Shown piece after piece: positions 557 to 20,070 of a stretch of DNA of 64,000 bases; positions within the stretch are counted from its first letter, which is position 1; the number at the start of each line of letters is the position of its first letter. The notes under the pieces are model-generated. The model made no database searches. It saw only the letters and a program-made list of their open reading frames with translations, and was not told the origin of the DNA. This stretch comes from Asterella californica. Lineage: Eukaryota; Streptophyta; Marchantiopsida; Marchantiales; Aytoniaceae. Location of the stretch: NCBI GenBank assembly GCA_036924285.1, contig JAYKYS010000007.1, forward strand, positions 7,502,001 to 7,566,000, in the 5' to 3' direction. A program made the translations under genes and the position numbers.

Positions 557-2168
557 TGTAGTGACGCAGGATTACTCCTTTTGCCCATTTAGTATACAAG
601 ATATCGTTCCCACAGAGGATTTATGCAAGTAATCGCTGCTCTAAGTTCTAGGATCTGTTCAAACACACAAACACACGGGTTTTGCCTAAAAATCCCGTCT
701 TCTCACAAAACCACACAAAACCACACGTCTTCCAGACACGCCAAAATGTACTCTGGATCTGAATAAACAACTACCAACTAAAATATCACACAACTATTCA
801 CAGAGAAGCTCGGGAAGACGATCTTCCTGCTTCCAGGTTGCTTCTTCCGGTCTTCTCGACACCGTCTTCCCGAAGCGATTCTCGTCTTCTGGGGGTTCAG
901 CTTGTCTTCTCACACCTCCAGAAGGCTGTCCGGCTTCGCGGAAGTCGACTAGCAATGGTCGTTACACCTTATTCTCATACTCACATTCCAACGGGTTAGA
1001 TTAATCACAGGGTGTGTGCCCCCTGTAGCCTTCCCAGGCTTCTGCCTACGGAAGTTGTCTTCATGCAGCGCTACAACGACATTCATCTTCACGGAAGCTC
1101 AATAGAAGTCTCGGAAACTCACTAGAAGAAGGTAAGAGGATGGAGAAGATGAGAGAAGATGGGGAAGAAGAGAAAATCCAAACAAGAGAAAACAAGATGA
1201 AAAAGGGCAATTAAGATTCCGACAGGCTTCTAGTCCGGATCCTGACTAACAAGCCATCCCTGCTTGTAATAGTTTGGGGAGGAAGACAACAAACGTGAGT
1301 ACTGGGGCACCGTCTTCTACTCGAGGATGTCGTCTTCTGTTGCGGGAAGAAGGCTTCTTTCTTCTTCACTTCGCTGCTATGACTGCTCTGTCTTCTGGGA
1401 TCCCTTACCCAGAAGACCGTTCGTACGTAGATCCCAAGTGCTCTACTGAACGAGTCAAGCTACACTCCACAACTGCTGACAGTCACCGCCACTCAAGAAG
1501 AACACTTCCCATGCACAATTGGGAGCGAATTCAATACAATCCACCATCCAGAAGACACGAGCAAAGCTTCTGCACTTAAATCCACAATCCATTCCCCGAG
1601 AAGAAGTCACAATGGCATTGGGAAGCTCACTCCCTCTACTTCCTGCGTCTACTCCTCTGACACACCAGTCTAGCTAACAAGACTGCACGAGGATGCCGTT
1701 CCCTGTTCCTAGACTGTCCACTATCTCTATCTACATCTCCAAGCCGCTGCTGATAACCAGAGAATGCAGACTTCTTCCTGCGTAATTCCCTTAGTCTAAC
1801 ATCGAGCATAGCTAATCTGTCTGCACCGTAGAATCTGTATATGTGTGCAGATCTCTGTAGTGTGTCTAATGTGCTATGAGTCTCCTGCACCGTAAGATGT
1901 TGATGTGTGTGCAGAGCTCCTGAATCCTACTCTGTCATCCTACTTATGCACTCGAATTGAGGTGCAGAAAGAATCCACTCCAACCTTCGACTGCAATTAG
2001 GGAGGGATGGACACCGCCAGAAGGTTACCACCTCACATGCAAAAACGGTTCCCTTTTCCTAATTAGCCATCTGGTTGTTTTACCCTACGCTGCCTACTCT
2101 GCCACATGGTCACTGATCTAAAATTAAATTGGACTTGTCTTTTCCTAATATAGCATATTGGGCACTTA

Positions 2169-3122
2169 CTAAGTTTGGACAAGCTCCTGGTCTTCTGGGC
2201 TTTGCTTATCTATTCTAATGGCTCGGATGCCATTTCCACCTGATCTATTTCTACTTGAACTACTTAACTCGGTTTCTGATAGGCTAGGAAGCCCTGTAAT
2301 TACCTTGGGTGTCGCTGAGGTGGCTTCCTCAATAGTCATCGCTGGCTTTGCTGCTGCTGCTTCTGCTTCTGCTTCTGCTTCGGAAGACGGAAGCGTCTTC
2401 TGGGAAGCTGGATCGACTTGTGCTTCCCCGCTCTTCTGAGAGACTAGTTCGACACTGGGAGCCATGGTGATCTCATAAGGGTCCGGGGAAGTCGCTTCCT
2501 CCACTCGGAATACGTGGGAAGACATCTCTTCTTCTCGTCTTCCAGAAGACATCTTGTCTTCCGGGACATCTTCTGGGGTCTTCTCGACTTCCAACGCTGT
2601 CACTACCAAGTGTACAGCGAGGTCGAACTCCTCCTTCTCCAAGTCTGGTCCTGTTGATGATGCTGGTGCTTGGGAAGATGCGTTTACTGGTGGCGGGATC
2701 AAGGGAAGACCATAGAGTGTCTTCACTCCCTCTATCTGCCGATCCAAGTACCTGAACATACTCTCCTTGCACTCCACAAACATTGCTTTGGACTCCTCGT
2801 CCCATCCTCTAGCCAGGGTAAGCAACTTCCTACCCGCGGTGAAGTTGAACTTCTTTCGAAGCGCTTCCACCGACTGTGCTAGCATCTCCTGCGCACGAGC
2901 CTCCGCTGCTTCCCGCTGCATCTTCTCGGCCGCAACCTGCGCTTCTATGGCTTCCCGCAGAGTCTTCCATGTCGTCTTCTCTTCTGCAAGGGCGGTGAGC
3001 TTATCTCGTACTCGCAGAACCTCCTGGTCACGCTGCTGTAAGCACGCCTGCAACTCCTGGTTGCTCTTCTTCAGCTGCGCTAACTCCTTGGTAGAAGCGG
3101 CTGCTTCCGCCTTGTACTTCAT
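2169..3122 (-). CDS. aORF of family C, N-terminally deleted coiled-coil form, inside the solo LTR
   Basis: An open frame of about 317 codons runs from an ATG at 3122 to the TAG at 2169. It matches the coiled-coil half of the longer aORF at 35313-37612. Visible parts are a charged heptad-like helix rich in Glu, Lys, Arg and Gln for about 120 residues, then a conserved block with FNFTAGRKLLTLARGWD and FRYLDRQIEGVKTLYGLPL, then an acidic tail with an Ala-Glu repeat encoded by a TTCTGC-type microsatellite. The N-terminal globular domain is missing through a deletion of about 1.4 kb; the junction creates this ATG (ACAATGAAG). The open frame can be extended upstream only from a non-ATG codon at 3176. 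Whether it is translated is unknown. Confidence 0.75.
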   Translation of the reverse strand: MKYKAEAAASTKELAQLKKSNQELQACLQQRDQEVLRVRDKLTALAEEKTTWKTLREAIEAQVAAEKMQREAAEARAQEMLAQSVEALRKKFNFTAGRKLLTLARGWDEESKAMFVECKESMFRYLDRQIEGVKTLYGLPLIPPPVNASSQAPASSTGPDLEKEEFDLAVHLVVTALEVEKTPEDVPEDKMSSGRREEEMSSHVFRVEEATSPDPYEITMAPSVELVSQKSGEAQVDPASQKTLPSSEAEAEAEAAAAKPAMTIEEATSATPKVITGLPSLSETELSSSSRNRSGGNGIRAIRIDKQSPEDQELVQT

Positions 3123-3949
3123 TGTTGCACTAAGCCACACGTACTTACTGTGAGCCGAAGACTCAGTCCTTCCCAAGCTCTCACAGTCTAGCTTCCACTC
3201 TCAGAAGACGAATCTAGTCTTCCAGAAGACAACTACTCCGTCTTCCGGGATTCTAACAGTGCTTCCTAACTTCCTCTCGTCTTCCGGGCTATATCTACTC
3301 AATCATAACTAAGGAAGGCCTCGCATGGATTACTAAGAAGACAATCCACCTTGCATCACATCCTACTTCCTAACAGAAGATACAAGATATGCGAGAAGTA
3401 GAGTATAGGAAAGGTTCAGAAGATGGTTGCGGGCTCCTGCGGTGACAGTGGCCTCTGGGAAGACTCCCGGGACAGTTTCTGATTCAATGTCTTTCTCGGA
3501 AGACCTCCCGAAGTCAGGCTTCCCTTCACTGATCTCACCTGTCTTCTTCTTCCTACGCGTAATCTATCCTCACAACAGACTCAAGACATTTGCACTCTGT
3601 TCTTCTGACTTCTCACCTCTCATACACACTCAGAAGAAGCTTGCTGCTCGATGGGAAGACATGACCCTCGACCATTCTCTCCAGATTCTGCCAGCAAGAC
3701 TTCTCACAACTCTTCTAAGTTCGGGAAGAAGAAGGAATAGGCTGCTATGGGTCGGACAGAAGAGACGCGTAACGGACCCTCACGTCTTCTCGCTCATTCT
3801 GCCAGCCGTTCCAGTCTTCTAGTCTCTCTAGGAAGATGTGGAGTTGAGAAGCTTGGAAGACCGGGAGGCACAGGCCTAGTCCCCGACTTCCAACTTCTCG
3901 AAATAACAAAACAACTCACCAAGCCACTCGGAATTCGTACCAAGCCTCT

Positions 3950-4170
3950 CTTAACACAAAACCAAGGCAAATCCACTCTTGATACGAATTGTGTACAGTC
4001 GACTTCCGAAGACAGTCTTCCGAAGACAGTCTTCCGAAGATGTCTTCCGTCTTCCGTCTTCCATCTTCCGCCGTCTTCCGGAAGATGCGTGTCTTCCGCC
4101 GTCTTCCGTCTTCCCAAAGACATCACTGAGAAGACGCTTCTCGGAAGACGGTCGTCTTCCGAAGAAGTCA
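3950..4170. repeat. GTCTTCC/GGAAGAC-dense stretch in the solo C LTR
   Basis: Short, imperfect tandem iterations of CTTCCGAAGACAGT and GTCTTCC fill this part of the LTR. Positions 4006-4040 hold three near-copies in a row. Corresponding but shorter stretches exist in the other C LTRs (42061-42180, 59910-60010 and 60780-60870), so the number of units varies between copies. Confidence 0.8.
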
Positions 4171-4319
4171 ACTTCTTATTAAAAAGCTCATAAGATCATC
4201 TTCCTGCTAAGGAAGTAGAAATCTTAAGTAACAACGCTTCTTCAGTTATACAAACAAGATATTAATCTTAAAATTTTCAAAAATTCGTGAATCCTGTAAT
4301 TTGTGGGCACCACAGTCCA

Positions 4320-4350
4320 TGGGTGGAGAATCAAGAGATACTACTCTTAA
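4320..4350 (+). pseudogene. pol: Last codons of the family A integrase, right of the solo LTR
   Basis: After the second GTCCA the integrase frame resumes (G-W-R-I-K-R-Y-Y-S) and stops at TAA 4348-4350. The nested A copy ends identically at 9518. Together with 1-556 this is one interrupted gene. Confidence 0.9.
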
Positions 4351-4374
4351 GTGTTCGCGGGGTGGCTTCACAAT

Positions 4375-4388
4375 TGAGAGGGGAAGTA
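4375..4388 (+). promoter_or_regulatory. Polypurine tract of the host A element
   Basis: The purine run GAGAGGGGAAG followed by TA lies directly before the LTR start TGTGAAGCC at 4389, about 25 bases after the integrase stop. This is where plus-strand DNA synthesis is primed. It fixes the 5' edge of the 3' LTR and shows that the aORF downstream lies inside the LTR. Confidence 0.88.
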
Positions 4389-4741
4389 TGTGAAGCCTTG
4401 GTTTTTCATTTTGTTAATTAATTGATTAGTTGTAAAGTAAATAAGAAGAATAGATGATAAAAGATAAACGATATGAGTAGAATAGTGTTAATTAGAAGTT
4501 TAGTGAAGAACCTCAGTTCTGGAAGAATTTATCGAATCTATGGAGACATTGGAGAGATGACTTCCTCATAGTTAAATTCCTCGGGCGAAGAGCTTTCTAA
4601 CGATATGTTGTGCGAGGCAATCGGAGGCTGAATGACGAAGTTACAGTAGGCTGAAGATGTATCGCAGTTGCAGAAGAAGAACATCGCCGCACTGTGAGCG
4701 CCGAAGAATGACAGTCAAGAAGGAGGAAACCCTAACCTCGG

Positions 4742-4772
4742 CACGTGTGGAGAAGCTAGCGCGGGATATAAG
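4742..4772 (+). promoter_or_regulatory. G-box and TATA-like site upstream of the aORF (host A LTR)
   Basis: CACGTG at 4742-4747 is followed by GATATAAG at 4765-4772, about 240 bases before the aORF ATG at 5010. The same arrangement occurs in both nested A LTRs (CACGTG at 9122-9127 and 18705-18710; TATATC complement at 9096-9103 and 18679-18686) and in B (31109-31114 and 31132-31139). CACGTG is the core of plant bZIP/bHLH binding sites. Promoter function is inferred. Confidence 0.5.
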
Positions 4773-5009
4773 CTGAGTGATCTAGGTCATTTACGTCATT
4801 GTCAAACTCATTTCATAGTGATTACCAGGAGCGGAGCGCGCCGCATTTTCCGACTGACGAAGAAGCTGTTCTTCCCCGGATTGAGCTACTGGAGAAGAAG
4901 CGCATTTCTGACGAGGAATCGTATTGCCATCGAGAACTCGATTACAGGCGAAGAAGGGATAGCGACGAAGAATCCGTTTGCAGCGAAGCTTGTTGCAGTG
5001 ATCTTAGGG

Positions 5010-6260
5010 ATGCGAGGAATGCAGACGACTAAGGCACCGAGGCTCCGAGCACTGGAAGTTAATCGAGCGGCTCTTCGCCGCTATGACAAGGAGCTCGAGG
5101 AGATGGGATTAGCATTCCTCTTACTTCCTTGGTGGGGAATGGTCTCCTCGAAATTGGTACACGAGTTGAAGGTCTGTAAGCAGCATCCGGCCGATGACAA
5201 CTATGGGCGGTCTTGTAATTGGACCGAAGATCATTGGTCCGGTGTCTTGAGAACTGACGATGCAAGTCGGGAGGGTGACCTTTTTTTTGACAGGGTCTTT
5301 GCCGCAGCTTCGCCCGAAGCAGTGAAGAACTTCCCCAAGCTCTTCAAGGAACTACCACAGGGGAGGAACGGTTACAGGACGGGCGATTATGTTCATCCGA
5401 AGAAAAGAGAAGTTGCTGATGCGATCATGGCGATCTTTCGGCCACGAAGAACGATCTACATGTCGAATTGGCAGATCAATTTCATCGAGCAGCTCTTCGC
5501 CGGGAGAAGAGCGCATTGGGCGAGGATCTTTCATCGTCATGTGCTGAAGCTTTGGAACGAGGACGACCTGGTGTACATAGGACCATTCATCTCGGTGTTC
5601 TACATGGGGATGAGACTACTATCAACCGAACAGCAGAAGAAGTTAGGCTTCACCGCAGCAGCCGAAGAAGACGAATTTCAGATGATATAGACTCCAGCTC
5701 GAGACGCACAACTCGAGAAGTTCTTCGATGAAGTCATCGCCGAGGAAACAGCGACCGAAGTAACGGAGGACACAACGCAAAGGCAAGACATGTCGACTTC
5801 AACAGCAGTTCCAGAGAAGGCGACCGAAGAGGTGAATCCGGCCGAGGATGATGACGTGGTCGAGGTATCCCCTCCGGTCCGCAGAAGTGGAAGGAAGAAA
5901 CCTCTGGAAGAGACACCGAGGTCTGCACAGAAGTCGAGAAAGAAGATGAAGATGACGAAGACAGTCCGTGCCAATGATGAAGCAGCAGACGAAGAGGCGA
6001 CTGAGGAGGCCGATGAAGTGGACACTCCTTGGACGGAGAAGGACGCTGACACTACACCGAAGAGTATTCTTTCTTCATCGATGATAGCAGAGATAGAGCA
6101 GCTTACTTCTTCGGCGAAGTACATCCAAGAGGTAGTCACGCCACTACTGTACAGCTTAGAAGGAAACCGCGGGACATACGAGGAGGTGGTCGGTCGGAAG
6201 CTAAACCTAGCGGAGTTAGTGCAGACGATGCACTTCGGCAGAGGAAACTGGAGAGAGGAG
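5010..6260 (+). pseudogene. aORF of the host A element, N-terminal part (continues 19489-20070)
   Basis: The first ATG of the conserved frame (MRGMQTTK) is at 5010. The globular N-terminal domain covers about residues 30-230, with CNWTEDHWSGVL, GYRTGDY, PKKREVADAIMAIFRPRR and a GPF-x-FYMGM block. An acidic linker with RRSGRKKP follows, then HFGRGNW at the beginning of the coiled coil. One internal TAG (5688-5690) replaces a CAG seen in the intact copies. At 6260 the frame is cut by the nested element but resumes in phase after 19488. No signal peptide or membrane segment is visible. Function is unknown; homologues lie in the LTRs of families A, B and C. Confidence 0.85.
6256..6260. repeat. 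Target-site duplication AGGAG (left copy; right copy 19484-19488)
   Basis: AGGAG at 6256-6260 is followed by TGTAACACAC. The opposite end of the insertion, GGCTTCACA (19483), is followed by AGGAG at 19484-19488. Removing the insertion and one copy restores the host aORF frame from G-N-W-R-E-E into K-E-N-L-R. Confidence 0.95.
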
Positions 6261-7004
6261 TGTAACACACAAGAAAACGAAAAGATGCTCGAAAGTAGTA
6301 ATTTAAGGATCAAACCCACAGAGATGCAAGTAAAGATCATCCAAAAGTAGTAAACATGTGACAAAGGTGATTCTTTATAGTTGTCTTTTATTCTCACGGG
6401 CAGAAATCAGTCCCGGTAGAGATCAAACTCAGGTCTATCCAACAAGACAGAGTTGATAATCCTGACAAACAACGTAACAGATATAAAACAGGTCAGGGAC
6501 CTCAGGAAACAGATGAACAACAGAGAAACAGAGCCACGGACGCAAATATCACACGAGGAAGTACTGCTGAAGTGCTACTAGGTAGCCTCTAACACCATAA
6601 ACGCTAAGTATCTTCACACTAAGTTACTTTCACTACTACTGCTCTCGGAAAACTCTGGCGAAGAAGACTCTTCTTCCGCCGAAGTACCAGATTGAACTCC
6701 TTCCTAAGTGTTCTACCAAAGAACAACTTCCTCCGAACTCAACTTCGCCCAAAAACGTCTTCGTAGAAAACTAACTTCGCAGATGCTGGTCTATTCTCAG
6801 TCCTCGCCGTAAACAGTCTACTCTGATTTCAAATGTCGACAGCAAATCCTTCGGCACCCAGACTAATTCCTACCACAGCAAACTACGATACTTCGTAGGT
6901 AAATCCACGAAATTGACAAACACACAATGGCTCCGCAAACTCAGGAAATAGAAAACTCAAAAATGATAAAACACATAGAGGTCCTGAACACGAACAACAC
7001 AACG

Positions 7005-7012
7005 CTTATATA
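7005..7012 (-). promoter_or_regulatory. TATATAAG box downstream of the aORF (nested A 3' LTR)
   Basis: TATATAAG on the minus strand lies about 30 bases after the aORF stop. It recurs at 16588-16595, in the host LTR at 20102-20109 and in family B at 33135-33142, always downstream of the aORF. It is the best TATA box in the LTR and probably starts the genomic RNA, which would leave about 740 bases of R-U5 before the primer site. The start site itself is inferred. Confidence 0.6.
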
Positions 7013-7043
7013 CAGATTTTCCCGAAGATGACGGATCTTCTTC

Positions 7044-8876
7044 CTAAGAAGTCGGGAGTGCTTCTGGTCCGCCGGATGAAGGTCTTGTGTCCGAAACGAC
7101 ACTAGGAACAACACTGCTTCCTAACGCTAACTCTCTACCTATCTCACAAACCGAGAACTCTACGGTTGCTCTTACCTCCCTAAGCTCCCTAATTACTCGC
7201 AGGCCTAACCTAGCTACTCGGTTCTTCGCCGTAATCCCCTCTGCATCTGCAGCTAGAAACTCCTCCCTAACCTGGCGAAGAAAACTCAGCTCTTCGGCGT
7301 CCATCTCTACGGCGAAGTGGTTCTTCAATGTCGGCTCGACCCTGCTCCGAAGTTGAGCACTCAGCTCCTCGGCCTTGATGACTCGCTGCTTTAGATCTTC
7401 ATTCTCCTTTGTCATCTGCACGACGACATCCAGGTTCCTATCTCGCTGGAGTCGAACCTCGTCCAACTCCTTCTTCGTCAAAGAAAGAACCTTCTTATGT
7501 TCCTTCTCTCTATCCAACTTCTGCCGAAGAAGAACCTCTTTCTCCGCTTTCTCGTTCTTCAACTCCTCCACCTTCGCCTCGATCTCCTTCTGCGCCATGA
7601 GGAGAGCTGCTCGTAAGTTGTCCTTCTCCTCCTTCCAGTTCCCTCGGCCGAAGTGCATCGTCTGTACCAACTCCGCTAGGTTCAGCTTCCGGCCGACCAC
7701 TTCCTCGTATGTCCCGCGGTTTCCCTCTAAGCTGTACAACAGGGGTGCGACCACTTCCTGCACATACTTCGCCGAAGAGACAAGCTGGTCTACCTCCCTC
7801 ATTGTCGATAGAGCAAAGTTAGTCTTTGGTGAAGTATCCACGCTCTTCTCCGCTTGAGGAGTGTCGACTTCGTCAGCTTCCTCAGTTGCTTCTTCATCAG
7901 CGGGCTCATCATCGTCGCGAACTGTCTTTGTCATCTTCATCTTCTTCCGCGACTTCTGTGTTGTCCTCGGTGTCTCTTCCAGAGGTTTCTTTCTCCCACT
8001 TCTGTGCACTGAAGGAGACACCTCTACTACATCATCCTCCTCGGCCGGAGTTGCCTCTTCGGTCGCCTTCTCTGGAACGGGTGTCGAAGTCGACGCGTCT
8101 TGCTTCTTCGCTGTCTCTATCACTTCTTCGGTCCTCGGTGCTTCTTCTAGGACTTCGTCGAAGGACTTCTCGAGATTTGCATCTCGGGCTGGAGTCTGTA
8201 TCACTTGGAACTCATCTTCCTCGGCTGCAGCGGTGAATCCCAACTTCTTCTGCTGTTCAGTCGATAGCAAGCCCATCCCCATGTAGAACACCGAGACAAA
8301 GGGTCCGATGTACACCAAGTCGTTATCGTTCCACAGCTTCAGTACGTGGCGATGAAAGATCCTTGCCCAATGTGCTCTTCTTCCGGCGAAGAGCTGCTCA
8401 ATGAAGTTGATCTGCCAATTCGACATGTATGTCGTTCTTCTTGGCCTGAAGATCGCCATGATCGCATCTGCTACTTCTCTCTTCTTCGGCTCACAGTAGT
8501 CGCCGGTTCTGTATCCATTCCTCCCTTGAGGCAATTCCCTGAAGAGATTCGGGAAGTTCTTCACTGCTTTGGGCGAAGCAGCAGCGGACACACTGTCGAA
8601 GAGAAGATCGCCTTCTCTGCCTGCGTCGTCCGTCCCCAAGACACCGGACCAGTGATCTTCGGTCCAATTGCACGGTCGCCCGTAGTGGTCATCGGCCGGA
8701 TGCTGCTTGCAGACCTTCAACTCGTTCACTAGTTTGGAGGAGACCATCCCCCACCAAGGAAGTAGAAGGAATGCTAATCCAATCTCCTCCAGCTCCTTGT
8801 CATAGCGGCGAAGAGCCGCTCGATTAACTTCAAACGATCGGAGCCTCGGTGACTTAGCTGTCTGCATTCCTCGCAT
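7044..8876 (-). CDS. aORF of family A, intact, 610 residues, inside the 3' LTR
   Basis: This is the intact copy of the LTR-encoded gene. I take the ATG at 8876 (MRGMQTAK); the open frame extends 29 codons further, but only from a non-ATG codon. Rough layout: a globular domain at residues 20-230, with CNWTEDHW, NGYRTGDY, a PKKREVADAIM block and a FAGRRAHWARIFHRHVLKLW helix, ending GPFVSVFYMGMGLL; an acidic linker at 230-390 with the basic motif RRSGRKKP-type sequence (H/R variants) and KSRKKMKM, a possible nuclear signal; and a coiled coil at about 420-560 beginning HFGRGNWKEEKDNLR. It carries no transmembrane segment, protease or nucleic-acid enzyme motif that I recognise. It might be a distant relative of the accessory proteins of Athila/Tat elements, but this is only a guess. 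Confidence 0.88.
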   Translation of the reverse strand: MRGMQTAKSPRLRSFEVNRAALRRYDKELEEIGLAFLLLPWWGMVSSKLVNELKVCKQHPADDHYGRPCNWTEDHWSGVLGTDDAGREGDLLFDSVSAAASPKAVKNFPNLFRELPQGRNGYRTGDYCEPKKREVADAIMAIFRPRRTTYMSNWQINFIEQLFAGRRAHWARIFHRHVLKLWNDNDLVYIGPFVSVFYMGMGLLSTEQQKKLGFTAAAEEDEFQVIQTPARDANLEKSFDEVLEEAPRTEEVIETAKKQDASTSTPVPEKATEEATPAEEDDVVEVSPSVHRSGRKKPLEETPRTTQKSRKKMKMTKTVRDDDEPADEEATEEADEVDTPQAEKSVDTSPKTNFALSTMREVDQLVSSAKYVQEVVAPLLYSLEGNRGTYEEVVGRKLNLAELVQTMHFGRGNWKEEKDNLRAALLMAQKEIEAKVEELKNEKAEKEVLLRQKLDREKEHKKVLSLTKKELDEVRLQRDRNLDVVVQMTKENEDLKQRVIKAEELSAQLRSRVEPTLKNHFAVEMDAEELSFLRQVREEFLAADAEGITAKNRVARLGLRVIRELREVRATVEFSVCEIGRELALGSSVVPSVVSDTRPSSGGPEALPTS

Positions 8877-9095
8877 CCCGAGGATCGCTGCAACAACCTT
8901 CGCTACAAACAGAATCGTCGTCGCAAATCGATTCCTCGCCCGCAATCGAATTCTTCCTCTCAAATTCGCTTCCTCGCCAGTAATCGACTTCGGCGAAGTG
9001 TGCGTACTTCGGCGCTCGGAAAGTGCGGCTCGCTGCGCTCCTGCTATCGCTCTGGAGAATAGTAAGATAATAAGGTAAATGACTTGTTACCTTGG

Positions 9096-9127
9096 CTTAT
9101 ATCTCGCATTAGGTCTTCCCGCACGTG
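9096..9127 (-). promoter_or_regulatory. G-box and TATA-like site upstream of the aORF (nested A 3' LTR)
   Basis: CACGTG lies at 9122-9127 and GATATAAG (minus strand) at 9096-9103, about 220-250 bases before the aORF ATG at 8876. The order and spacing match the host A LTR (4742-4772), even though the surrounding sequence has diverged. It is a candidate promoter for a separate aORF transcript. Confidence 0.5.
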
Positions 9128-9479
9128 CCGAAGTTAGGGTTTCCTCTTCCCAACTGTCATTCTTCGGCGCTCACGGTGCGGCGATGTTCTTCTTTCGAAT
9201 TACGACACATCTTTGGTCTGTTGTAACTTCGTCATCCCACCTCCGTTTGCCTCGCACAACATATCGTTAGAAAGCTCTTCGCCCGAGGAATACATCTAGG
9301 AAGAAATCCTCTGTCAAGTGTCTCCATAGATTCGATAAATTCCTCCATAACTGAGATTCTTCCCTAAACTTCTAATTAACACTATTCTACTCATATCTTT
9401 TATCTTCTATCATCTATTCTTCTTATTTGCTTTACAACTAATCAATTAATTAACAAAAATGAAAAACTAAGGCTTCACA

Positions 9480-9492
9480 TACTCCCCCTCTC
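9480..9492 (-). promoter_or_regulatory. Polypurine tract of the nested A element
   Basis: On the minus strand GAGAGGGGGAGTA directly precedes the LTR start TGTGAAGCC (9479). The integrase stop is about 25 bases upstream, so nothing lies between pol and the LTR. Confidence 0.9.
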
Positions 9493-9517
9493 AATTGTGA
9501 AGCGACCCCGCGAACAC

Positions 9518-12357
9518 TTAAGAGTAGTATCTCTTGATTCTCCACCCATTAACTCGGGTGGCTAACAATGTTCCATCGAGTTCTTCCAACTGAACCGAAC
9601 CATTACTATAACGACGCGTTACTTTATAAGGTCCCATCCAACGTAAGTGTAACTTCCCTGGAAATTTGGTGTACCTACTGTCATACAGCAGTACTAAATC
9701 ACCATCTTTGATGTCCACTTTGCGAATCTTCTTATCGTGCTTCTCTTTCCGCTTCATTTGAATGATCTCCGTTAGTCGTTTAGACTCCTCACGGTCTTCC
9801 TCAAGTGTCATCAGACTCTTAAGTCGTAACAGTTGGCTCTCCTCCACTGACAATCTATCTTCAGACAGGATTCTGTAAGTAGGCACATCAAATTCAACTC
9901 GCATGATCGGTGTCATACCATATGTTAGGAAAAAGGGTGTCTGACGGGTCGTTATCTTTTCTGCATTACGAAACGCCCACAAGACAGCCGGTAACTTTGT
10001 ATCCCAATCATAAGCATGATTCACTGTCACCTTGTTCAGAATCTTGCACAACACTCCATTAGACTTCTCCGTCAATCCATTAGCTTTTGGATTGTACGAT
10101 GTTGTCTTCCGGTGTTTAATACCAAAGTAGTCTGTCAATTCTTCTATCATCTTGTTCAAAAAATGTGTACCTCGGTCACTCACCAACTCCAGTGGGTATC
10201 CATATCGGGTAATGATCTGTGTGTACAGAAACTCAGCCACAGTGGCTGCGTCATCTTTCTTGGTAGTTGCTGCTTCAACCATCTTTGTTGCATAATCAGT
10301 AGCTATCAGAATGTACCTTCTTCTAGTGCGGCGTGTTGCAGGTTGTATAGGTCCTACAAAATCGATGCCCCACTTCTCGAATGGTGCTAACGGAAGTATC
10401 GGGTGTAACGGCCACTGAGTGGTTGGTGTAGGCTTACCCACTCTTTGACAGTTATCACACTTCTTGATGATCTCCTGAACATCTTTGTACATCGTTGGTC
10501 ACCAGTATCCGGCTGAGAGGATTTTCTTCACAGTGTTCCTCAGTGCATAGTGTCCTCCTTCAAGTTCCGAGTGTAGTGCTCCCACCACTTGTGGTATCTC
10601 ATGCATTTCCAGACATCTTCGAAGTTCTTCATCAGGTCCTCTTTTGAACAGTATCCCGTTCTTCAATTCGTAGGGTCCTGCCTGATGTATGAAGACTGTT
10701 CGCTGTTCAGCATCCATTTCTTCTGGGCACTGCAAAGTCTGTAAATATCTGTACAGATCATAGTACTTCGTAGCAGGTGCTACTGTCAGCTGAAACAATT
10801 CTTCATCTGAAAATCATCTGCCACTGTATCCACTCGTTCTCCCGTTCTCAGTCAAGACAAGTAATCAGCATTCTCATGGTGAATTCCTTGTCTGGTCTGA
10901 ACTGTGAACGTAAACTCTTGGAGTAACAACATCCATCTCGCTATTCGTCCTGACAAGTCTGACTTCTGTACCAGATGCTTCAACGCATAATGATCCACAT
11001 GAAAGACAAACTCATAGCCAAGGAGGTAATGTCTAAACTTCTTTACTGAGTACACCATTCCTAATGCTTCACGTTCGGTAGTGGTGTAGTTCTTTTCTGC
11101 TGCTGAAAGTTGTCTACTCGCATAATAGATTGGGTGGTCTCTCTTCTCATCATCTTTCTGACTGAGCACCACTCCAATAGCAAACGCAGAAGTGTCTACA
11201 TACACTTGAAAAGGTCTCTCCCAGTCTGGTGGTCGCATGACAGGTGCTTCGGCCAACTTCTTTTTCAGCGTTTCAAACGCCTCATGCTGGTTCTCGTGCC
11301 AATGATACTCTGTCGTCTTCTTCAGCAGTTCTGTCAGTGGCGCAGCAAGTATGGCGTAATCTTTGATGAACCTCCTGTAATATCCGACATGTCCTAGGAA
11401 GGCTCTCAACTCGCTGATGTCAGTAGGGGGTTGCAGGGAGAGTATCACTCGAACTTTCTCTACATCTACTTCTATGCCTCGACCTGATACTCTATGTCCA
11501 AGAAGTATTCCTTCAGTCATCACGAAGAAGCATTTCTCGGGGTGTAATGCAAGTCTGGCCTCCCTACACTTCTGAAAGGTTTTAGCTAAACACGCTGCAT
11601 GTTCCTCACGTGTGCCAAAAACACAAAAATCATCTATAAAAATCTCTAAAAATTTTCGCAAATAGTCCTGAAAAATCGAGGTCATCATCCTCTGAAAGGT
11701 AGCTGGTGCATTGCATAGTCCAAAAGGCATCTTGTGATAAGCATAAGTGCCCCAATCTGTAGTAAAAGTAGTCTTGTCCTTATCTTGCTCTCTAATGGAC
11801 ACTTGGTTGTACCCTGAAAACCCATCCAGAAAACTGTAACATTCCTTTCCAGATACATGATCCAAAATGGTATCAGTAAAAGGTAAAGGGTGATGATCTT
11901 TCTTTGTTGCTGCATTAAGCTTTCTGAAATCTTGACAGACTCTTATCTTTCCTGTTTGCTTCTTAGGTACCACTACTATAGGTGCTACCCATTCACTACT
12001 TAACACAGGAAAAATAATACCTGCCTTTAGGTACTTATCTATCTCGTCTTTAACCATCAAAGAGTATTTTGGATTGAGTCGGTACTGTCTTTGTCGTACA
12101 GGTACTGATCCTTCAATGAGATCGATACGATGTTCTCCCCACTGTGCAGGTATCCCCTTCATGTCTTCCACAGTCCAGGCGAAGACATCTTGGTAATGAA
12201 CCAGCATTTGACGATACACTTCCAACTCTTCTCCTTGTACCACAACAGAAATCTTTAGGCTCTTACCTTCGCTTATCACTAGGTCTTGGGATGCTCCTGG
12301 AAGGACTATACCATCTGTATGACTGGTCTCTGCACTCCCGTGACCTAGCTGTGATTG
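9518..12357 (-). pseudogene. pol: Family A pol: RT, RNase H and integrase, with three lesions
   Basis: Read on the minus strand in the same phase as gag-pro, this segment starts right after the amber codon at 12358-12360. RT has the core FIDDFCVFG (YIDD position) and the Athila-like block LLGHRVSGRGIEVD. RNase H has YVDTSAFAIGVVLSQ and TTEREALGMVYS. Integrase has an HHCC finger (HSELEGGH ... CDNCQRVG), the DDE residues in GIDFVGP, SDRGTHF and LTEKSNG, and the GPY module. Lesions: TGA at 10852-10854 where an Arg CGA is expected, a one-base-type frameshift near 10800-10815, and TGA at 10499-10501 for the second Trp of YWW. The rest is open, so the damage is recent. The first 475 codons (RT-RNase H) are intact. 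Confidence 0.92.
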
Positions 12358-12360
12358 CTA
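12358..12360 (-). other. Amber codon between gag-pro and RT in a read-through-like context
   Basis: On the minus strand the frame reads GAA TAG CAA TCA. The phase is open on both sides: 1131 codons of gag-pro before it, 475 of RT-RNase H after it. The six bases after the UAG fit CARYYA, the context known from the leaky stop of tobacco mosaic virus. Family C has no stop at this place. It is either a programmed leaky stop or a CAG-to-TAG mutation like several others in this window. Confidence 0.5.
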
Positions 12361-15300
12361 TTCGGCCTCGTTCATATCTTCTTCTTCATCAATTTCATAG
12401 CATTGTAGGTAGTTGACCATCGAATAAGGGTCTCCTTTCCTTTCTCCTGCACTGCTCGTTGATGAATCAGATCCTGAAGTGTAACCCTCATCAGTTGACT
12501 CTGTTTCACCCTGATGCGTTATCTTCTTCCAAGAAACCATCACAGCTTTATCGGTTGGTTTCTGTGGATCTTTGAACTGTAAACGGTGCCGGTACCAATC
12601 TGTTAGTACCTTGGCACCATACAACCATGGCCTCCCAATCAAAATTTGATAACCAGACTTAACCAAAGGGCGCAGCACAACATAAGTGAGTTTAAAAGAA
12701 ATTCCGCCTATTAAGGTGGGAATGTTGCGCAGCAGTCCAAGTGGTCGTCTCCTTGTTTGATCTGCCAGCCGTAACACTCGCTGAGTTTCTTCAAATTTGC
12801 TGAAACCCAACGCGTGTGCCGTGTCTTCTGTCATTATGTTGACCCCTGATCCGGAGTCAATTGGCACTTTCCTGATTACGCAACCTGCAACCTCCACTTC
12901 CACTTCTGGAGATCCCAGGTCTTCTGCCTCGATGTGAAACAGAGAAGGTAACTTTGATCTTCTTACTTTAGTGGGTTTCTTCAGTGCTTGAAGTAACAAT
13001 TTCCTATAAATTTTGTTATCTTCAATCAGCTGTTTGAAACTTATGTTAGCCTTCTGTGTTTCTAAATCAGCTACCACATCATAATGTGGCATTGCCACAG
13101 ATTCTTTCTTCACAGGTTCCGGTCGACTGTGCTTCTTCGGAACCTCCTCGTTCTTGGCTGCAGTCCTGTCTTCAGCGGTCGAGGTACGGAAAATCTTGGG
13201 TGCGGACGAAGTTGATCGTTCTGGTACTTCGGCCGAAGTTGTATCAGCTTCCTTTGCCGAAGTTCCTGCTCGCAGTAATTCCTTCTTCAGGAGTTCGCGG
13301 ACTTCGTCCGTAATGTCAACTGGTAGTCTCGGAGGGTTTACGCTCTTCAGTACTTCTTCTTCCTCTTCCTCAGTTTCCTCCTCAACTATTTTCTTCTTGG
13401 CTTTCTCCGCAGCCTTCTTCTGCTTCTTCAGCTCTTTCTTCGATTGAGTCTTTATGTGCGCTTCTTCTGCCTTTCTCTTGGTCTTGAAAGAGCTTCTGGT
13501 GTCCACTTTACAAACCCAAGTTTCTTCTGGTGGCCATCCTTCATCTCCAGCTGCTTTCCATTCTTCCAAGTCCACCTTGTGCAGTTGTGCTTCTCCATGA
13601 CGTTCTGTTTTGGGATCAAAGCGAACCCCCCTCTTCTCCACTGGTGGATTGGTACAATCTGCCGTGGCGTGCCCTGGTTGATGACATTTTGCACACAATG
13701 CTACATAGCCTAGATGCTTCTTCGGATGTGGACAATTGGGTGACCAATGTTCTGTACTACCACAATTGAAACAAGACCCATGGGGTGGTGGTTTATTGGC
13801 TCCTGCTGGAGTCATTAAGTGTTTCTGAGACACGTTTTGTGCTCTCTCTCTTGGTACAAATCTAGAAATGGATATGGGTTGGATCGGGGTTATCGGAGAA
13901 GGGTGAGGAGGTCTGGGAGATTGGGGTGGTGTTGCTTGTGGTATGGACTGTACTCCATACACATCATCTGGAGTCTCTATAAAAAATGAGCTGTAATATG
14001 ACTCGAATGCGGGTGCCCATTCTACATGTGACGCCTGAAATGACCTGGCATTTGTACACTCTGTATTGGCATGCCCTTGTTTCCCACAGGTCGTACACCA
14101 TAAGCTCGGTCGTGATGCTGAAGGTGACTTCCTCCTGTCAGGAGTCCCTATCATCTGCACTTTCAGATCCGCAAACCCTTTGATCATCTCCTCCATGAGT
14201 TGATTGCCATCCCCTTTGCCTTTGCTTTTCTTCTCCTTCGAGCTTTTCTTCTCTTTGGACGAAGAAGTTCGTTTCATTCTTCGTTCTTCTTCGCTCGAAG
14301 AAGATGAACTCGATGATGAAGATACGTCGGCTTCGGCCGAAGAAGACTCATCATCAGAAGATTCGTCGGAGGAAGAAGGTTCTCTACGACTCTTCTTCTG
14401 CTTCTTCCTTCGAGTCGTTTTCCCTTCCTTCCTTTCTCTCTTTCCTTTCTTCTTCCCTTTTATCCATCCTCCTTTACTTCCGAGGGTGGACGCTTCAAAT
14501 GCTTCCGCTGAAGCAACAACCTCTTCAATGGCGTCCATCTTTCCTCGACGGCACCAAATCTCCATTTCAATCGGTAAGCCTGTAACTAGCCATTCTGTGG
14601 CTTGATCCATAGAGTATGGGTTGGTTGTTCCCATCCTCGGAATTCTATCCAGTAGATTGTAAAATCTCTGAACGTAATCTTTTAGGCTCTCTTTCTTCCC
14701 TCTGACCAGTCTGGTCAGCTTCCCCAACACTTGACGATTGTATCCAATTTCCCGGAACCGCTCTAAGAATTTTGTCTTCAGCTTGTCCCAAGTATCAATG
14801 TCTCCTGGTACTCTGTTTGCGTGATTGTACCAGCTACGCGCCCTCTTCCTGAGAAGACTTGGAAAGATCCACAGACGATCTGGTTCAGCATCTTCTTTGT
14901 TAGTGACAGATACAGATTCAAACAGTTTAATGTAAGCATCTGCATCCTCATCGTCATCTGAAGATCCTCCTCTGAACTTCGGGTAACCATGTTTAGTGAT
15001 GGGTTGGCCTGCCATGCTTCGAACGAATGGGGCTCTTGGAACTTGAGTTGCTATCTTGGCAGGCGTTGGAATTGGCGCTGGTACTGCAGCTTGAACAAGG
15101 ACAGCAGAGGCAATACCCGCAGCAGCAGCTGCTTGAGCTTGTCTCTTCTTGAATACGGATGGTCCTGTGGTTGGCTGTAAGTAAGGAGCAGCGCTGTCCT
15201 TCTGAGCTACTGGAGTTAACGGAAGGAGTTCCCGCACCAGTGCTTGAGGAATAAGTTCCTGCGCCTGTAAAAGTTCCACTAAGGTAGTAACAGCTTCTAC

Positions 15301-15753
15301 TGCCTTAGTTGCAGCTTCTTCATTCGAAGAAGTAAACTTATCTTGATCTGCAGAAGTACTCCCTACTTTCGGGTTAGGAGTAAACAACTGCGGGTATATA
15401 ACAGTATTGACTTCGGGAAAAGGTTTCCACCCTACTTCACTTTCTGGATATTCAGTCTCAGCACTTAGCCGAGTGGTAACTTCTTCGAAGTCAAGTTCTC
15501 TCTGAGCAGATTCGAGAGGAGTTGGAGGTAACGACTTTGGTGTCCGGGGTGAACTTGATTCACCAAGGCTTGGTTCCTTCCTCTTCCATTCTTTTGAGTT
15601 AGGTGTTCTCCAACCTCGTTCTCTCTTCTTATGCTCTTCTTTTAACCGACGAGCTTCTTCCAGAATCTGTTCTCGATATTCTGCTCGTCTTTCGCGCCTC
15701 CTGTCTCTTTCAGATTGCACGTCTCCAGGAGGATCAGGCTTGCCCGTCGACAT
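12361..15753 (-). CDS. gag-pro: Family A Gag-protease polyprotein, intact
   Basis: About 1131 residues from the ATG at 15753 (MSTGKPDPPG). An Arg/Glu-rich N-terminus comes first. The capsid-like Retrotrans_gag region lies at about residues 255-420 (YIKLFESVS ... KTKFLERFREIGYNRQVL ... ATEWLVTGLP), followed by a Lys-rich then Ser/Glu-rich low-complexity tract at about 430-520. There are three CCHC zinc knuckles: CTTCGKQGHANTEC, CFNCGSTEHWSPNC and CAKCHQPGHATADC (about 553, 661 and 686). A long charged linker leads to an aspartic protease with VPIDSGSGVNIM near residue 965 and ILIGRPWL near 1040. Gag packages the RNA in virus-like particles; protease cleaves the polyprotein. Protease is fused to Gag here, before the amber codon. 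Confidence 0.93.
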
Positions 15754-15802
15754 ACATGTCTCTGGACTTCTGTTCACTGATCTTGGATAATTTCAGCATT
15801 CG

Positions 15803-15822
15803 CATCTCCGGCAGCGGCGCCA
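15803..15822 (-). promoter_or_regulatory. Primer binding site, tRNA-Asp type (nested A)
   Basis: The minus-strand sequence TGGCGCCGCTGCCGGAGATG lies 21 bases after the 5' LTR end (15844). It closely resembles the complement of a plant tRNA-Asp 3' end, from memory, and the primer site of Athila/Tat elements. The C elements use nearly the same sequence (39212-39229 and 46271-46288). The 18-21-base gap between LTR and primer site is larger than the few bases usual in other gypsy elements. Confidence 0.8.
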
Positions 15823-15843: not shown

Positions 15844-18800
15844 TGTAACACACAAGAAAACGAAAAGATGCTCGCAAGTAGTAATTTAAGGATCGAACCC
15901 ACAGAGATGCAAGTAAAGATCATCCAAAAGTAGTAAACATGTGACAAAGGTGATTCTTTATAGTTGTCTTTTATTCTCACGGGCAGAAATCAGTCCCGGT
16001 AGAGATCAAACTCAAGTCTATCCAACAAGACAGAGTTGATAATCCTGACAAACAACGTAACAGATATAAAACATGTCAGGGACCTCAGGAAACAGATGAA
16101 CAACAGAGAAACAGAGCCACGGACGCAAATATCACACGAGGAAGTACTGCTGAAGTGCTACTAGGTAGCCTCTAACACCATAAACGCTAAGTATCTTCAC
16201 ACTAAGTTACTTTCACTACTACTGCTCTCGGAAAACTCTGGCGAAGAAGACTCTTCTTCCGCCGAAGTACCAGATTGAACTCCTTCCTAAGTGTTCTACC
16301 AAAGAACAACTTTCTCCGAACTCAACTTCGCCCAAAAACGTCTTCGTAGAAAACTAACTTCGCAGATGCTGGTCTATTCTCAGTCCTCGCCGTAAACAGT
16401 CTACTCTGATTTCAAATGTCGACAGCAAATCCTTCGGCACCCAGACTAATTCCTACCACAGCAAACTACGATACTTCGTAGGTAAATCCACGAAATTGAC
16501 AAACACACAATGGCTCCGCAAACTCAGGAAATAGAAAACTCAAAAATGATAAAACACATAGAGGTCCTGAACACGAACAACACAACACTTATATACAGAT
16601 TTTCCCGAAGATGACTGATCTTCTTCCTAAGAAGTCGGGAGTGCTTCTGGTCTGCCGGATGAAGGTCCTGTGTCCGAAACGACACTAGGAACAACACCGC
16701 TTCCTAACGCTAACTCTCTACCTATCTCACAAACCGAGAACTCTACGGTTGCTCTTACCTCCCTAAGCTCCCTAATTACTCGCTGGCCTAACCTAGCTAC
16801 TCGGTTCTTCGCCGTAATCCCCTCTACATCTGCAGCTAGAAACTCCTCCCTAACCTGACGAAGAAAACTCAGCTCTTCGGCGTCCATCTCTACGGCGAAG
16901 TGGTTCTTCAATGTCGGCTCGACCCTGCTCCGAAGTTGAGCACTCAGCTCCTCGGCCTTGATGACTCGCTGCTTTAGATCTTCATTCTCCTTTGTCATCT
17001 GCGCGACGACATCCAGGTTCCTATCTCGCTGGAGTCGAACCTCGTCCAACTCCTTCTTCGTCAAAGAAAGAACCTTCTTATGTTCCTTCTCTCTATCCAA
17101 CTTCTGCCGAAGAAGAACCTCTTTCTCCGCTTTCTCGTTCTTCAACTCCTCCACCTTCGCCTCGATCTCCTTCAACGCCATGAGGAGAGCTGCTCATAAG
17201 TTGTCCTTCTCCTCCTTCCAGTTCCCTCGGCCGAAGTGCATCGTCTGTACCAACTCCGCTAGGTTCAGCTTCCGGCCGACCACTTCCTCGTATGTCCCGC
17301 GGTTTCCCTCTAAGCTGTACAACAGGGGTGCGACCACTTCCTGCACATACTTCGCCGAAGAGACAAGCTGGTCTACCTCCCTCATTGTCGATAGAGCAAA
17401 GTTAGTCTTTGGTGAAGTATCCACGCTCTTCTCCGCTTGAGGAGTGTCGACTTCGTCAGCTTCCTCAGTTGCTTCTTCATCAGCGGGCTCATCATCGTCG
17501 CGAACTGTCTTTGTCATCTTCATCTTCTTCCGCGACTTCTGTGTTGTCCTCGGTGTCTCTTCCAGAGGTTTCTTTCTCCCACTTCTGCGCACTGGAGGAG
17601 ACACCTCTACTACATCATCCTCCTCGGCCGGAGTTGCCTCTTCGGTCGCCTTCTCTGGAACGGGTGTCGAAGTCGACGCGTCTTGCTTCTTCGCTGTCTC
17701 TATCACTTCTTCGGTCCTCGGTGCTTCTTCTAGGACTTCGTCGAAGGACTTCTCGAGATTTGCATCTCGGGCTGGAGTCTGTATCACTTGGAACTCATCT
17801 TCCTCAGCTGCAGCGGTGAATCCCAACTTCTTCTGCTGTTCAGTCGATAGCAAGCCCATCCCCATGTAGAACACCGAGACAAAGGGTCCGATGTACACCA
17901 AGTCGTTATCGTTCCACAGCTTCAGTACGTGGCGATGAAAGATCCTTGCCCAATGTGCTCTTCTTCCGGCGAAGAGCTGCTCAATGAAGTTGATCTGCCA
18001 ATTCGACATGTATGTCGTTCTTCTTGGCCTGAAGATCGCCATGATCGCATCTGCTACTTCTCTCTTCTTCGGCTCACAGTAGTCGCCGGTTCTGTATCCA
18101 TTCCTCCCTTGAGGCAATTCCCTGAAGAGATTCGGGAAGTTCTTCACTGCTTTGGGCGAAGCAGCAGCGGACACACTGTCGAAGAGAAGATCGCCTTCTC
18201 TGCCTGCGTCGTCCGTCCCCAAGACACCGGACCAGTGATCTTCGGTCCAATTGCACGGTCGCCCGTAGTGGTCATCGGCCGGATGCTGCTTGCAGACCTT
18301 CAACTCGTTCACTAGTTTGGAGGAGACCATCCCCCACCAAGGAAGTAGAAGGAATGCTAATCCAATCTCCTCCAGCTCCTTGTCATAGCGGCGAAGAGCC
18401 GCTCGATTAACTTCAAACGATCGGAGCCTCGGTGACTTAGCTGTCTGCATTCCTCGCATCCCGAGGATCGCTGCAACAACCTTCGCTACAAACAGAATCG
18501 TCGTCGCAAATCGATTCCTCGCCCGCAATCGAATTCTTCCTCTCAAATTCGCTTCCTCGCCAGTAATCGACTTCGGCGAAGTGTGCGTACTTCGGCGCTC
18601 GGAAAGTGCGGCTCGCTGCGCTCCTGCTATCGCTCTGGAGAATAGTAAGATAATAAGGTAAATGACTTGTTACCTTGGCTTATATCTCGCATTAGGTCTT
18701 CCCGCACGTGCCGAAGTTAGGGTTTCCTCTTCCCAACTGTCATTCTTCGGCGCTCACGGTGCGGCGATGTTCTTCTTTCGAATTACGACACATCTTTGGT

Positions 18801-19062
18801 CTGTTGTAACTTCGTCATCCCACCTCCGTTTGCCTCGCACAACATATCGTTAGAAAGCTCTTCGCCCGAGGAATACATCTAGGAAGAAATCCTCTGTCAA
18901 GTGTCTCCATAGATTCGATAAATTCCTCCATAACTGAGATTCTTCCCTAAACTTCTAATTAACACTATTCTACTCATATCTTTTATCTTCTATCATCTAT
19001 TCTTCTTATTTGCTTTACAACTAATCAATTAATTAACAAAAATGAAAAACTAAGGCTTCACA
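15844..19062 (-). repeat. Family A 5' LTR (3219 bp) containing an aORF copy; middle LTR of the tandem
   Basis: The LTR runs on the minus strand from TGTGAAGCC (19062) to GTGTTACA (15844). Upstream of it are a polypurine tract and an integrase end (19063-19396), so it also serves as 3' LTR of a deleted neighbouring unit. It has the same internal layout as 6261-9479, including TATATAAG at 16588-16595 and CACGTG at 18705-18710. The parts without ORF (15844-16626 and 18460-19062) are near-identical to the 3' LTR. Confidence 0.95.
16627..18459 (-). pseudogene. aORF of family A, copy in the 5' LTR, one nonsense codon
   Basis: This is a near-identical copy of 7044-8876. The only break is a TGA (17194-17196) where the intact copy has CGA, in the NLRAALL segment at the start of the coiled coil. 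Most other differences are single substitutions. The N-terminal domain and linker stay open (about 420 codons from the ATG), so a truncated product lacking the coiled coil could be made. Confidence 0.88.
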
Positions 19063-19396
19063 TACTCCCCCTCTCAATTGTGAAGCGACCCCGCGAACAC
19101 TTAAGAGTAGTATCTCTTGATTCTCCACCCATTAACTCGGGTGGCTAACAATGTTCCATCGAGTTCTTCCAACTGAACCGAACCATTACTATAACGACGC
19201 GTTACTTTATAAGGTCCCATCCAACGTAAGTGTAACTTCCCTGGAAATTTGGTGTACCTACTGTCATACAGCAGTACTAAATCACCATCTTTGATGTCCA
19301 CTTTGCGAATCTTCTTATCGTGCTTCTCTTTCCGCTTCATTTGAATGATCTCCGTTAGTCGTTTAGACTCCTCGCGGTCTTCCTCAAGTGTCCTCA
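19063..19396 (-). pseudogene. pol: Integrase C-terminal fragment and polypurine tract of the deleted first tandem unit
   Basis: 79 codons of the family A integrase C-terminus (19340-19101, including RWMGPYKV and the terminal GWRIKRYYS), with about 55 more bases of upstream homology. A polypurine tract precedes the LTR at 19062. At 19396 it is joined to an 86-bp piece of the LTR start (19397-19483), with a few bases of shared sequence (TCA/TCAG) at the joint. This marks an internal deletion of most of an LTR and most of an internal region. Confidence 0.88.
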
Positions 19397-19488
19397 GTAT
19401 CTTTTATCTTCTATCATCTATTCTTCTTATTTGCTTTACAACTAATCAATTAATTAACAAAAATGAAAAACTAAGGCTTCACAAGGAG

Positions 19489-20070
19489 AAAGAGAACTTA
19501 CGCACAGCTCTTCTCATGGCACAGAAAGAGACCCAAGCGAAGGTCGAGGAGTTGAAGAACGAGACATCGGAGAAAGAGGTTCTTCTTCGACAGAAGTTGG
19601 ATCAAGAGAGAGATCATGAGAAAGTACTTTCTCTGATGAAGAAGCAATTGGATGAGATGCGAGTTCAGAGGGATCGAGCTCAGGACGTGGTCGCGGAAAT
19701 GACTAAGGAAATCAAAGACTCGAGGCGTCGACTGACATCGGCCGAAGAGCTGAGCGCTCAACTTCGGAGCAGGATCGAGCCAACATTGAAGAACTACTTT
19801 GCAGTCGAGATGGACACCGAGGAGCTGAGCTTTCTTCATCAGATTAGGGAGGAGTTTGTAGCTGCAGATGCGGAGGGTACTTCAGCTAGGAACCGGGTAG
19901 CTAGGCTAGGCCAACGGGTAATTAGGGAGGTTAGGGAGGTTAGAGCAACCGTAGAGTTCTCAGTTTGCGAGATAGGTAGAGAGTTAGCGATAGGAAGCGG
20001 TGTTGTTCCTGGTGTCGTTTCAAGCACAGGACCTTCATCCGACGGACCAGAAGTGCTCCCGACTTCTTAG
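19489..20070 (+). pseudogene. aORF of the host A element, coiled-coil part (continuation of 5010-6260)
   Basis: The host frame resumes after the target duplication (K-E-N-L-R-T-A-L-L) and stays open to the TAG at 20068-20070. It encodes an uninterrupted coiled coil of about 110 residues (MAQKETQAKVEELKNE onward). A conserved C-terminal block follows, with RSRIEPTLKNYFAVEMD and VRATVEFSVCEIGREL, then a Ser/Pro-rich tail. It is about 85-90 percent similar by eye to the nested copies, and the C-terminal block is the best conserved part. Confidence 0.85.

Follow-up and report, generated by a model that had tools for sequence, protein, structure and literature searches.

A protein-coding gene inside the long terminal repeats of Ty3/gypsy retrotransposons of Asterella californica

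We analyzed a stretch of 64,000 nucleotides from Asterella californica (contig JAYKYS010000007.1; C627:7502001-7566000 in our numbering of the 516.7-Mb host assembly), hereafter the window, which contains a Ty3/gypsy long terminal repeat (LTR) retrotransposon, element A, on the minus strand at 6261-19483. Inside the 3' LTR of this element lies an intact accessory open reading frame (aORF) of 610 codons (7044..8876, minus strand), which runs in the sense orientation relative to the element, downstream of the polypurine tract (PPT), and takes up 1833 of the 3219 LTR bases. The presence of a protein gene in an LTR, first noticed in an initial annotation of the window, is confirmed, with three corrections, and the reading of the gene as located inside the LTR is supported in the part of the genome examined. 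The sequence shows that a sense gene lies past the PPT within the LTR, such that elements with two LTRs carry two copies and solo LTRs keep one. Taking the findings together, we consider it rather probable that these elements form a Ty3/gypsy group with a complete accessory protein gene in the LTR, situated in the U3 region, with a promoter of its own and coding for a trans-acting, perhaps nuclear, factor.

The LTRs of element A and the gene that they contain

The LTRs of element A run from TGTGAAGCC to GTGTTACA, with TG..CA ends, and each unit is 3219 bp long. The 3' LTR (6261..9479, minus strand) directly follows the PPT, GAGAGGGGGAGTA (9480..9492, minus strand), and on its other side abuts AGGAG (6256..6260), the left copy of the target duplication that flanks the element; the right copy is found at 19484..19488. 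Hence, the edge marks listed in the initial annotation hold for the 3' LTR, whereas at the 5' end they are 421 bp apart. The 5' LTR unit (15844..19062, minus strand), which had been described as identical to the 3' LTR, matches it at 3199 of 3219 positions, with 15 of the 20 differences being transitions, and the edge proposed at 19062 does not end the element, which continues to 19483. The extra 421 bp (19063..19483, minus strand), bordered by the right AGGAG, consists of LTR bases 1-86 followed by about 335 bp, comprising the integrase tail and the PPT, that were copied from the flank of the 3' LTR, after which the full LTR begins. This piece would be accounted for by a jump between templates in plus-strand synthesis; extra length of this 421-bp type was absent from the other 49 LTR copies examined. 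The primer-binding site (PBS) said to adjoin the 5' unit is present as the tRNA-like TGGCGCCGCTGCCGG (15808..15822, minus strand), behind a 21-nt spacer from the LTR end.

The 610-residue aORF occupies LTR bases 604-2436, as proposed, and is open in the 3' LTR. Its copy in the 5' LTR (16627..18459, minus strand) has a CGA-to-TGA change at codon 422; hence, both LTRs carry the frame, as the annotation had it, with one intact copy in this element.

LTR copies elsewhere in the genome

A genome-wide search with the aORF of family A gave 9,897 first-look candidates, of which the best 72 were scored; since these are the best by construction, intact copies are over-represented among them. No inner stop was found in 50 of the 72, and 46 form 24 same-strand pairs spaced by 9,493-9,583 bp, both members being stop-free in 17 pairs. 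Fifty of the scored copies were examined with their flanks. In all 50, the aORF lies within LTRs bounded by TGTGAAGC and GTGTTACA, whose length is 3155-3237 bp except for the window copy at 3640 bp; a copy with the aORF between pol and a shorter LTR, the arrangement that the annotation had named as contrary to its proposal, was seen in none of them. The ATG is kept in every one of these aORFs, inner stops are absent from 35, and 42 are 1833 bp long and 8 are 1821 bp long, in each case a multiple of three.

The examined copies cover 15 two-LTR sets, one being formed by the outer two LTRs of a three-LTR array. Matching 5-bp duplications flank 14 of these sets, and both aORFs are open in 11, in keeping with the expectation of a frame open in both LTRs across many copies. 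In a further 13 copies, a solo LTR is flanked by a matching 5-bp duplication, and the aORF is open in 7 of these. L019, L034, L038, L039, L044, and L048 are single LTRs of elements or members of arrays, and the LTR at L024 has neither duplication nor PPT nor PBS. Three evenly spaced LTR copies are found at C526:25972824-25996729 (L043-L045), where the outer ones share TTATG and the middle one has both PPT and PBS; by spacing alone, further three-unit arrays are seen at C92:911929-932860 (family A) and C43:6772359-6792926.

Selection on the aORF

The window also contains an older relative of element A, termed A', in the aORF of which element A is nested in the opposite orientation; the solo LTR B4 of a further family, described below, is nested in the integrase end of A' (3-6260, 19484-20856). 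The A' LTR consequently falls into a left part (4389..6260, plus strand), with the aORF from 5010, and a right part (19489..20856, plus strand), with the aORF to 20070 and TATATAAG at 20102. The aORFs of A and A' align over 1833 bp without an indel and differ at 324 positions (86, 48, and 190 changes at codon positions 1, 2, and 3, respectively), and that of A' has one stop, at codon 227. Their ratio of nonsynonymous to synonymous divergence (dN/dS) is 0.137, falling to 0.065 over codons 1-235. One antisense frame of the pair also has a low ratio (0.25) but contains 10 and 20 stops. Since the frame is indel-free against A' despite 324 differences, and since all 50 genomic lengths are multiples of three, its maintenance goes beyond chance.

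Between elements (34 LTRs, one per element, A' included; a counting method was used with stop codons skipped, and the pairs are not independent), the 371 of 561 pairs with a dS above 0.05 gave ratios of 0.111-0.294 with a median of 0.176, which is below 1 and bears out the purifying selection anticipated in the initial annotation. The median for integrase is 0.048, a tighter constraint than that on the aORF. Within elements, 15 comparisons of the 5' with the 3' LTR yielded 10 synonymous and 34 nonsynonymous changes in the aORF; as it has 411 synonymous to 1416 nonsynonymous sites, the neutral expectation is about 10 to 34, and the changes fit neutrality. A ratio near 1 in recent insertions, which the annotation had counted against a selected gene, is thus observed within elements and not between them; such a ratio is expected of single decaying copies, and hence, we deem the between-element value the relevant one. 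Purifying selection between elements together with neutrality within them therefore points to a protein selected through transposition: single aORF copies apparently decay freely after insertion, while the transposing lineage keeps the protein.

Between A and A', dS is 0.136 in integrase (15 of 121 synonymous sites) and 0.726 in the aORF (191 of 411; Fisher test, 1.5e-12); dS drops toward either end of the ORF. For that pair only, a mosaic formed by recombination of a U3 cassette is plausible. The contrast is milder across other elements: the 65 of 171 pairs of 3' LTRs with an aORF dS above 0.1 (the damaged L038 included) have a median aORF-to-integrase dS ratio of 1.65, and a general fivefold faster divergence of the aORF was dropped as a claim.

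The related families C and B

The family C protein, of 553 residues, shares 40% identity with that of family A across 546 aligned positions (BLAST identity, 37%), with BLAST E values of 6e-108 for A against C and 4e-17 for A against B. In the window, family C is represented by a degraded aORF (31364..33024, plus strand; tblastn identities of 38% and 33%) with TATATAAG at 33135. The piece that contains it (28782-33688) leads from a gag ORF nearly directly into U3 and the aORF without pol, and is an internally deleted copy. In the genome, 140 of 5,455 candidates were scored with the 276 N-terminal residues as the query; 76 are stop-free within the match, and 26 pairs are found among them all, 11 spaced by exactly 9,876 bp and 19 with both members stop-free. 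At the first C locus sampled, the LTR starts with TGTAGAGCC, 607 bp ahead of the match, and ends 3161 bp on with TTGTTACA, behind which come a 20-nt spacer and the PBS, and a PPT precedes the second copy. Leader and gag follow both units of this locus, which is therefore either an array or truncated. The outer ends of six further pairs were sampled: matching 5-bp duplications flank five of these pairs, and the sixth continues into the leader. The window C aORF and a young C aORF give a dN/dS of 0.125 (one pair).

The extent of the family B LTRs follows from the solo LTR B4 (557..4314, minus strand), which has GTCCA as its target duplication, and from LTRs with the same PBS behind them. The LTR B1 (33689-39193) contains a broken aORF homolog (35313..37511, plus strand), recognized by 28% tblastn identity to A over the N-domain, by its frames, and by the PBS after the LTR; B1 and the interrupted B2 are the only case seen here of the B gene in both LTRs of one element. 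B3 (41917-46252) and B4 share a 1.4-kb deletion that removes the N-domain of the aORF; in B4, an ATG sits at the deletion junction and the shortened ORF is open (a C-terminal ORF of 317 codons, 2169-3122). An intron as the origin of this 1.4-kb difference was rejected because its edges do not read GT..AG. In the genome, 150 of 9,865 candidates were scored, mostly with one or more stops. The copy L061 has a 5,706-bp LTR with a 763-codon frame at LTR bases 1829-4118 (757 residues from the ATG). The B N-domain has a dN/dS of 0.166-0.418 (median, 0.249; 55 pairs from 11 loci), and the C-terminal part of B1, B3, and B4 has one of 0.18-0.24. On the evidence of these alignments and LTR boundaries, the layout of family A, target duplications included, recurs in family C, and a B LTR holds a distant homolog.

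The predicted protein and its possible affinities

The protein can be divided into a conserved N-domain, a charged linker with basic clusters (RRSGRKKPL in A and RRSKRKKPL in C), and a C-terminal half with a heptad pattern (period of 3.50 in residues 371-610). A second conserved segment, codons 371-420, has a dN/dS of 0.039. Pfam searches gave no match, PF04195 (Transposase_28) included, either for the whole A protein at an E value of 0.1 or for five N-domains at an E value of 10. In searches that did not extend to named plant genomes, no homolog outside this genome was recovered from a protein collection with the whole protein (7,994 candidates scored; E value of 1e-3) or with residues 1-235 (1,461 candidates; E value of 1), and none was found among viral contigs or PDB sequences. 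PHROGs at an E value of 1 gave only two matches, with E values of 0.14 and 0.21, both to families whose function is unknown. An AlphaFold model of the N-domain, built from five window sequences, had a mean predicted local distance difference test score of 50.2 and no PDB match at an E value of 0.001, and was not used as evidence. Nor does the aORF qualify as env-like, given that the gene is inside the LTR rather than between pol and the LTR and that its hydropathy is borderline.

Proposed promoter signals, expression, and function

Three putative signals surround the gene in the family A LTR: TATA1, GATATAAG (9096..9103, minus strand), about 220 nt ahead of the ATG and present in 51/51 LTRs compared, as the proposed aORF promoter; TATA2, TATATAAG (7005..7012, minus strand), present in 49/51, as the proposed start of the genomic RNA; and AATAAA (6387..6392, minus strand), present in 51/51, as the proposed polyadenylation signal. 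Since TATA2 follows the ORF and AATAAA lies near the LTR end, the gene would fall in U3, with U3 extending from base 1 to about 2495 and R spanning about 0.6 kb. In the young C LTR, TATATAAG likewise lies downstream of the ORF, at 2337. The 15-mer ACTTCGGCACGTGCG is common to the regions upstream of the A and C ORFs (0/500 shuffles gave one as long).

In the scenario that we favor, the TATA box past the gene would start the genomic RNA and AATAAA would end it, whereupon reverse transcription would copy the U3 gene into both LTRs. Any LTR, even a solo one, would yield a separate mRNA driven by the TATA box ahead of the ATG. The product may work in trans: some elements have moved even though one and the same premature stop is found in both of their LTRs. 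On account of the N-domain, the charged linker with basic clusters, and the heptad-patterned C-terminal half, we propose that it might be a nuclear accessory factor aiding nuclear entry, integration, or escape from silencing; this nuclear accessory role is the least certain part of the proposal. More tentatively, and with less than even confidence, the LTR could be seen as a self-contained cassette of promoter, ORF, and polyadenylation signal, in which case solo LTRs would be stand-alone genes supplying the protein in trans, the location would predate the split of the three families, and U3 cassettes would have been exchanged, as A and A' hint. Were this so, the gene could survive loss of the element by recombination, and broken elements could still move.

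Several observations weigh against the favored scenario. An identical premature stop is present in both LTRs of 3 of the 15 sets (L010/L011, L014/L017, and L029/L030; the codons concerned are 477, 559, and 71). A stop at codon 373 is common to L038 and L039, two members of an array, and the separate solo LTRs L018 and L027 share one at codon 13. All of these speak against a strict need for the gene in cis. Thus, copies with a broken aORF appear to have moved, for which there are three readings: action of the product in trans, a dispensable product, or conversion of one LTR by the other, the last two being unfavorable to the scenario. The signals are also uneven among the families. The region upstream of the C ORF has TATATAC instead of GATATAAG, and no AATAAA turned up where the end of the C LTR was sampled; the B LTR L061 lacks TATATAAG and has its sole AATAAA at LTR base 137, and a pattern scan of five window B sequences found neither TATA nor AATAAA. 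As a defining promoter box, ACTTCGGCACGTGCG was dropped, its CACGTG being intact in 10/51 A LTRs. Further, B1 and B2 of the window have a dN/dS of 0.53-0.58, the N-domain structure model is poor, and the hydropathy profile has two hydrophobic stretches with a mean of 1.5-1.6 and a borderline maximum of 1.63 over 19 residues.

The same U3 gene might instead be expressed from a spliced transcript of the 5' LTR, on which it would be the last ORF, like sag of mouse mammary tumor virus (MMTV), TATA1 then being no promoter. The position of the gene after the PPT and before TATA2 suits such expression, and spliced transcripts of sag are described in the available part of PMC9147501; however, the presence of GATATAAG in every LTR compared, and its retention in A' within a 75-bp stretch that is 35% different, make this unlikely, if still worth serious consideration. 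Conservation of TATA1 would equally be accounted for if this box started the genomic RNA, which would put the gene in a 2.7-kb R region as the first ORF of the element RNA. An R region of this length would be unusual, and the four occurrences of TATATAAG in the window, on both strands, each fall just after one of the four A and C aORFs; together with the near-complete retention of this box in A, they render this reading improbable.

The aORF could also have no role for the element, either as a passenger or as a domesticated gene of the host that became trapped in the LTR. This would be consistent with the lack of any known domain and with the shared stops of the three sets that moved and of the two solo LTRs with the codon-13 stop, but the between-element dN/dS values in A, C, and B (0.176, 0.125, and 0.249, the second from one pair) and the homologs in three families speak for a selected gene, and we regard this option as very unlikely. 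Finally, that the repeats are tandem duplications rather than LTRs is suggested by the three-unit arrays (C526 and, by spacing, C92 and C43) and by PBS and gag following both units at the first sampled C locus, but is scarcely credible in view of the TG..CA ends, the PPT before and PBS after the units, and the matching 5-bp duplications at 14/15 A sets, 13 A solo units, and 5/6 C pairs.

Relationship to known LTR genes and accessory ORFs

Among retroviruses, nef of human immunodeficiency virus also overlaps U3. The sag gene of MMTV lies in the LTR overlapping U3 and, like the aORF, is a sense gene present in both LTRs (PMC9147501, as excerpted). The comparison with sag drawn in the initial annotation thus holds for position in the LTR and fails for homology, the aORF having no Pfam match. 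Both LTRs carry the A gene, and its predicted placement in U3, as expected of a gene of the sag kind, draws on TATA2 and AATAAA. Further differences are that the host element is a plant retrotransposon in which no env was found, that TATA1 suggests a separate promoter, and that the aORF reading frame gives no sign of an immune function.

The accessory ORFs of plant elements are mostly situated between pol and the 3' LTR (excerpts of PMC7264820). Those of Retand, Grande, and RIRE2 resemble the aORF in lying downstream of pol and being conserved between copies, and the Grande accessory protein is nuclear and has its own promoter (same excerpts), to which TATA1 and the basic clusters of A are suggestive parallels. 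They are, however, antisense, between pol and the 3' LTR, and many have TRP28 (PF04195; PMC11963269, in the text available), whereas the A aORF is in sense, inside the LTR, and without a Pfam match. Cassandra, Helenus, and Ajax also have gene-like sequence in the LTR beyond regulatory DNA (PMC10886601, as excerpted), but theirs is derived from RNA genes and is not protein-coding.

Among the titles and beginnings of abstracts listed by searches of open-license literature, preprints excluded, none described a protein gene inside an LTR other than retroviral sag, and hence none in a plant retrotransposon, which is no proof of absence. The portion of PMC6875170 available uses "within the LTR" in unrelated senses, and phrases for ORFs in LTRs are absent from that of PMC11963269. 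A gene in U3 thus has retroviral precedent, while related plant families that carry there a protein of no known family are, as far as searched, new within this literature.

These families, in which intact copies are identical or nearly so, offer a parallel to MMTV sag among plant retrotransposons. LTRs are commonly taken as regulatory DNA and as neutral insertion clocks; here, 1833 of 3219 bases are a selected gene. Each new insertion gets two gene copies, and a single repeat left over can keep one. Hence, a solo LTR can be coding, and surveys that seek extra ORFs beside the polyprotein alone could miss a gene in the LTR. Why a gene should sit where each transposition doubles its copies becomes a testable question in these families.

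Internal region of element A and other features of the window

The internal region of element A has the domain order gag, protease, reverse transcriptase, RNase H, and integrase by Pfam, with protease below the cutoff. It comprises a gag and protease ORF of 1131 codons (12358..15753, minus strand), with Retrotrans_gag and a zinc knuckle; a reverse transcriptase with one RNase H (10852..12207, minus strand), recognized by Pfam and by its frames; and the integrase part of pol (9518..10492, minus strand), matching Pfam rve. The pol of this copy has in-frame stops and one frameshift. Across the three internal ORFs, the gaps between which were read in part, Pfam recognizes a single RNase H region; Tat elements without a second RNase H are known in Marchantia (excerpts of PMC10508981). 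The best match of the reverse transcriptase stands at 82%, and the nearest matches with a name are from Riccia sorocarpa (77% over 84%), Marchantia (79% over 67%), and Calypogeia (58%), which points to a liverwort host. An Rfam scan of 6000-21000 returned nothing at the gathering threshold.

A tRNA-like PBS, TGGCGCCGCTGCCG, is found in families A, B, and C about 18-21 nt past the LTR end (15808-15843 in A; after 39193 and 46252 in B), and in all three, the spacer begins with TATA. As plant surveys sought the PBS 0-5 bp downstream of the LTR (PMC6317226, as excerpted), this offset suggests that processing of the U5 end may be unusual in these elements. The window also contains another type of gypsy-like element with RNase H, integrase, and gag-like ORFs, at 24075-26151 and 54374-56314, the two being 73% identical over 1.3 kb.

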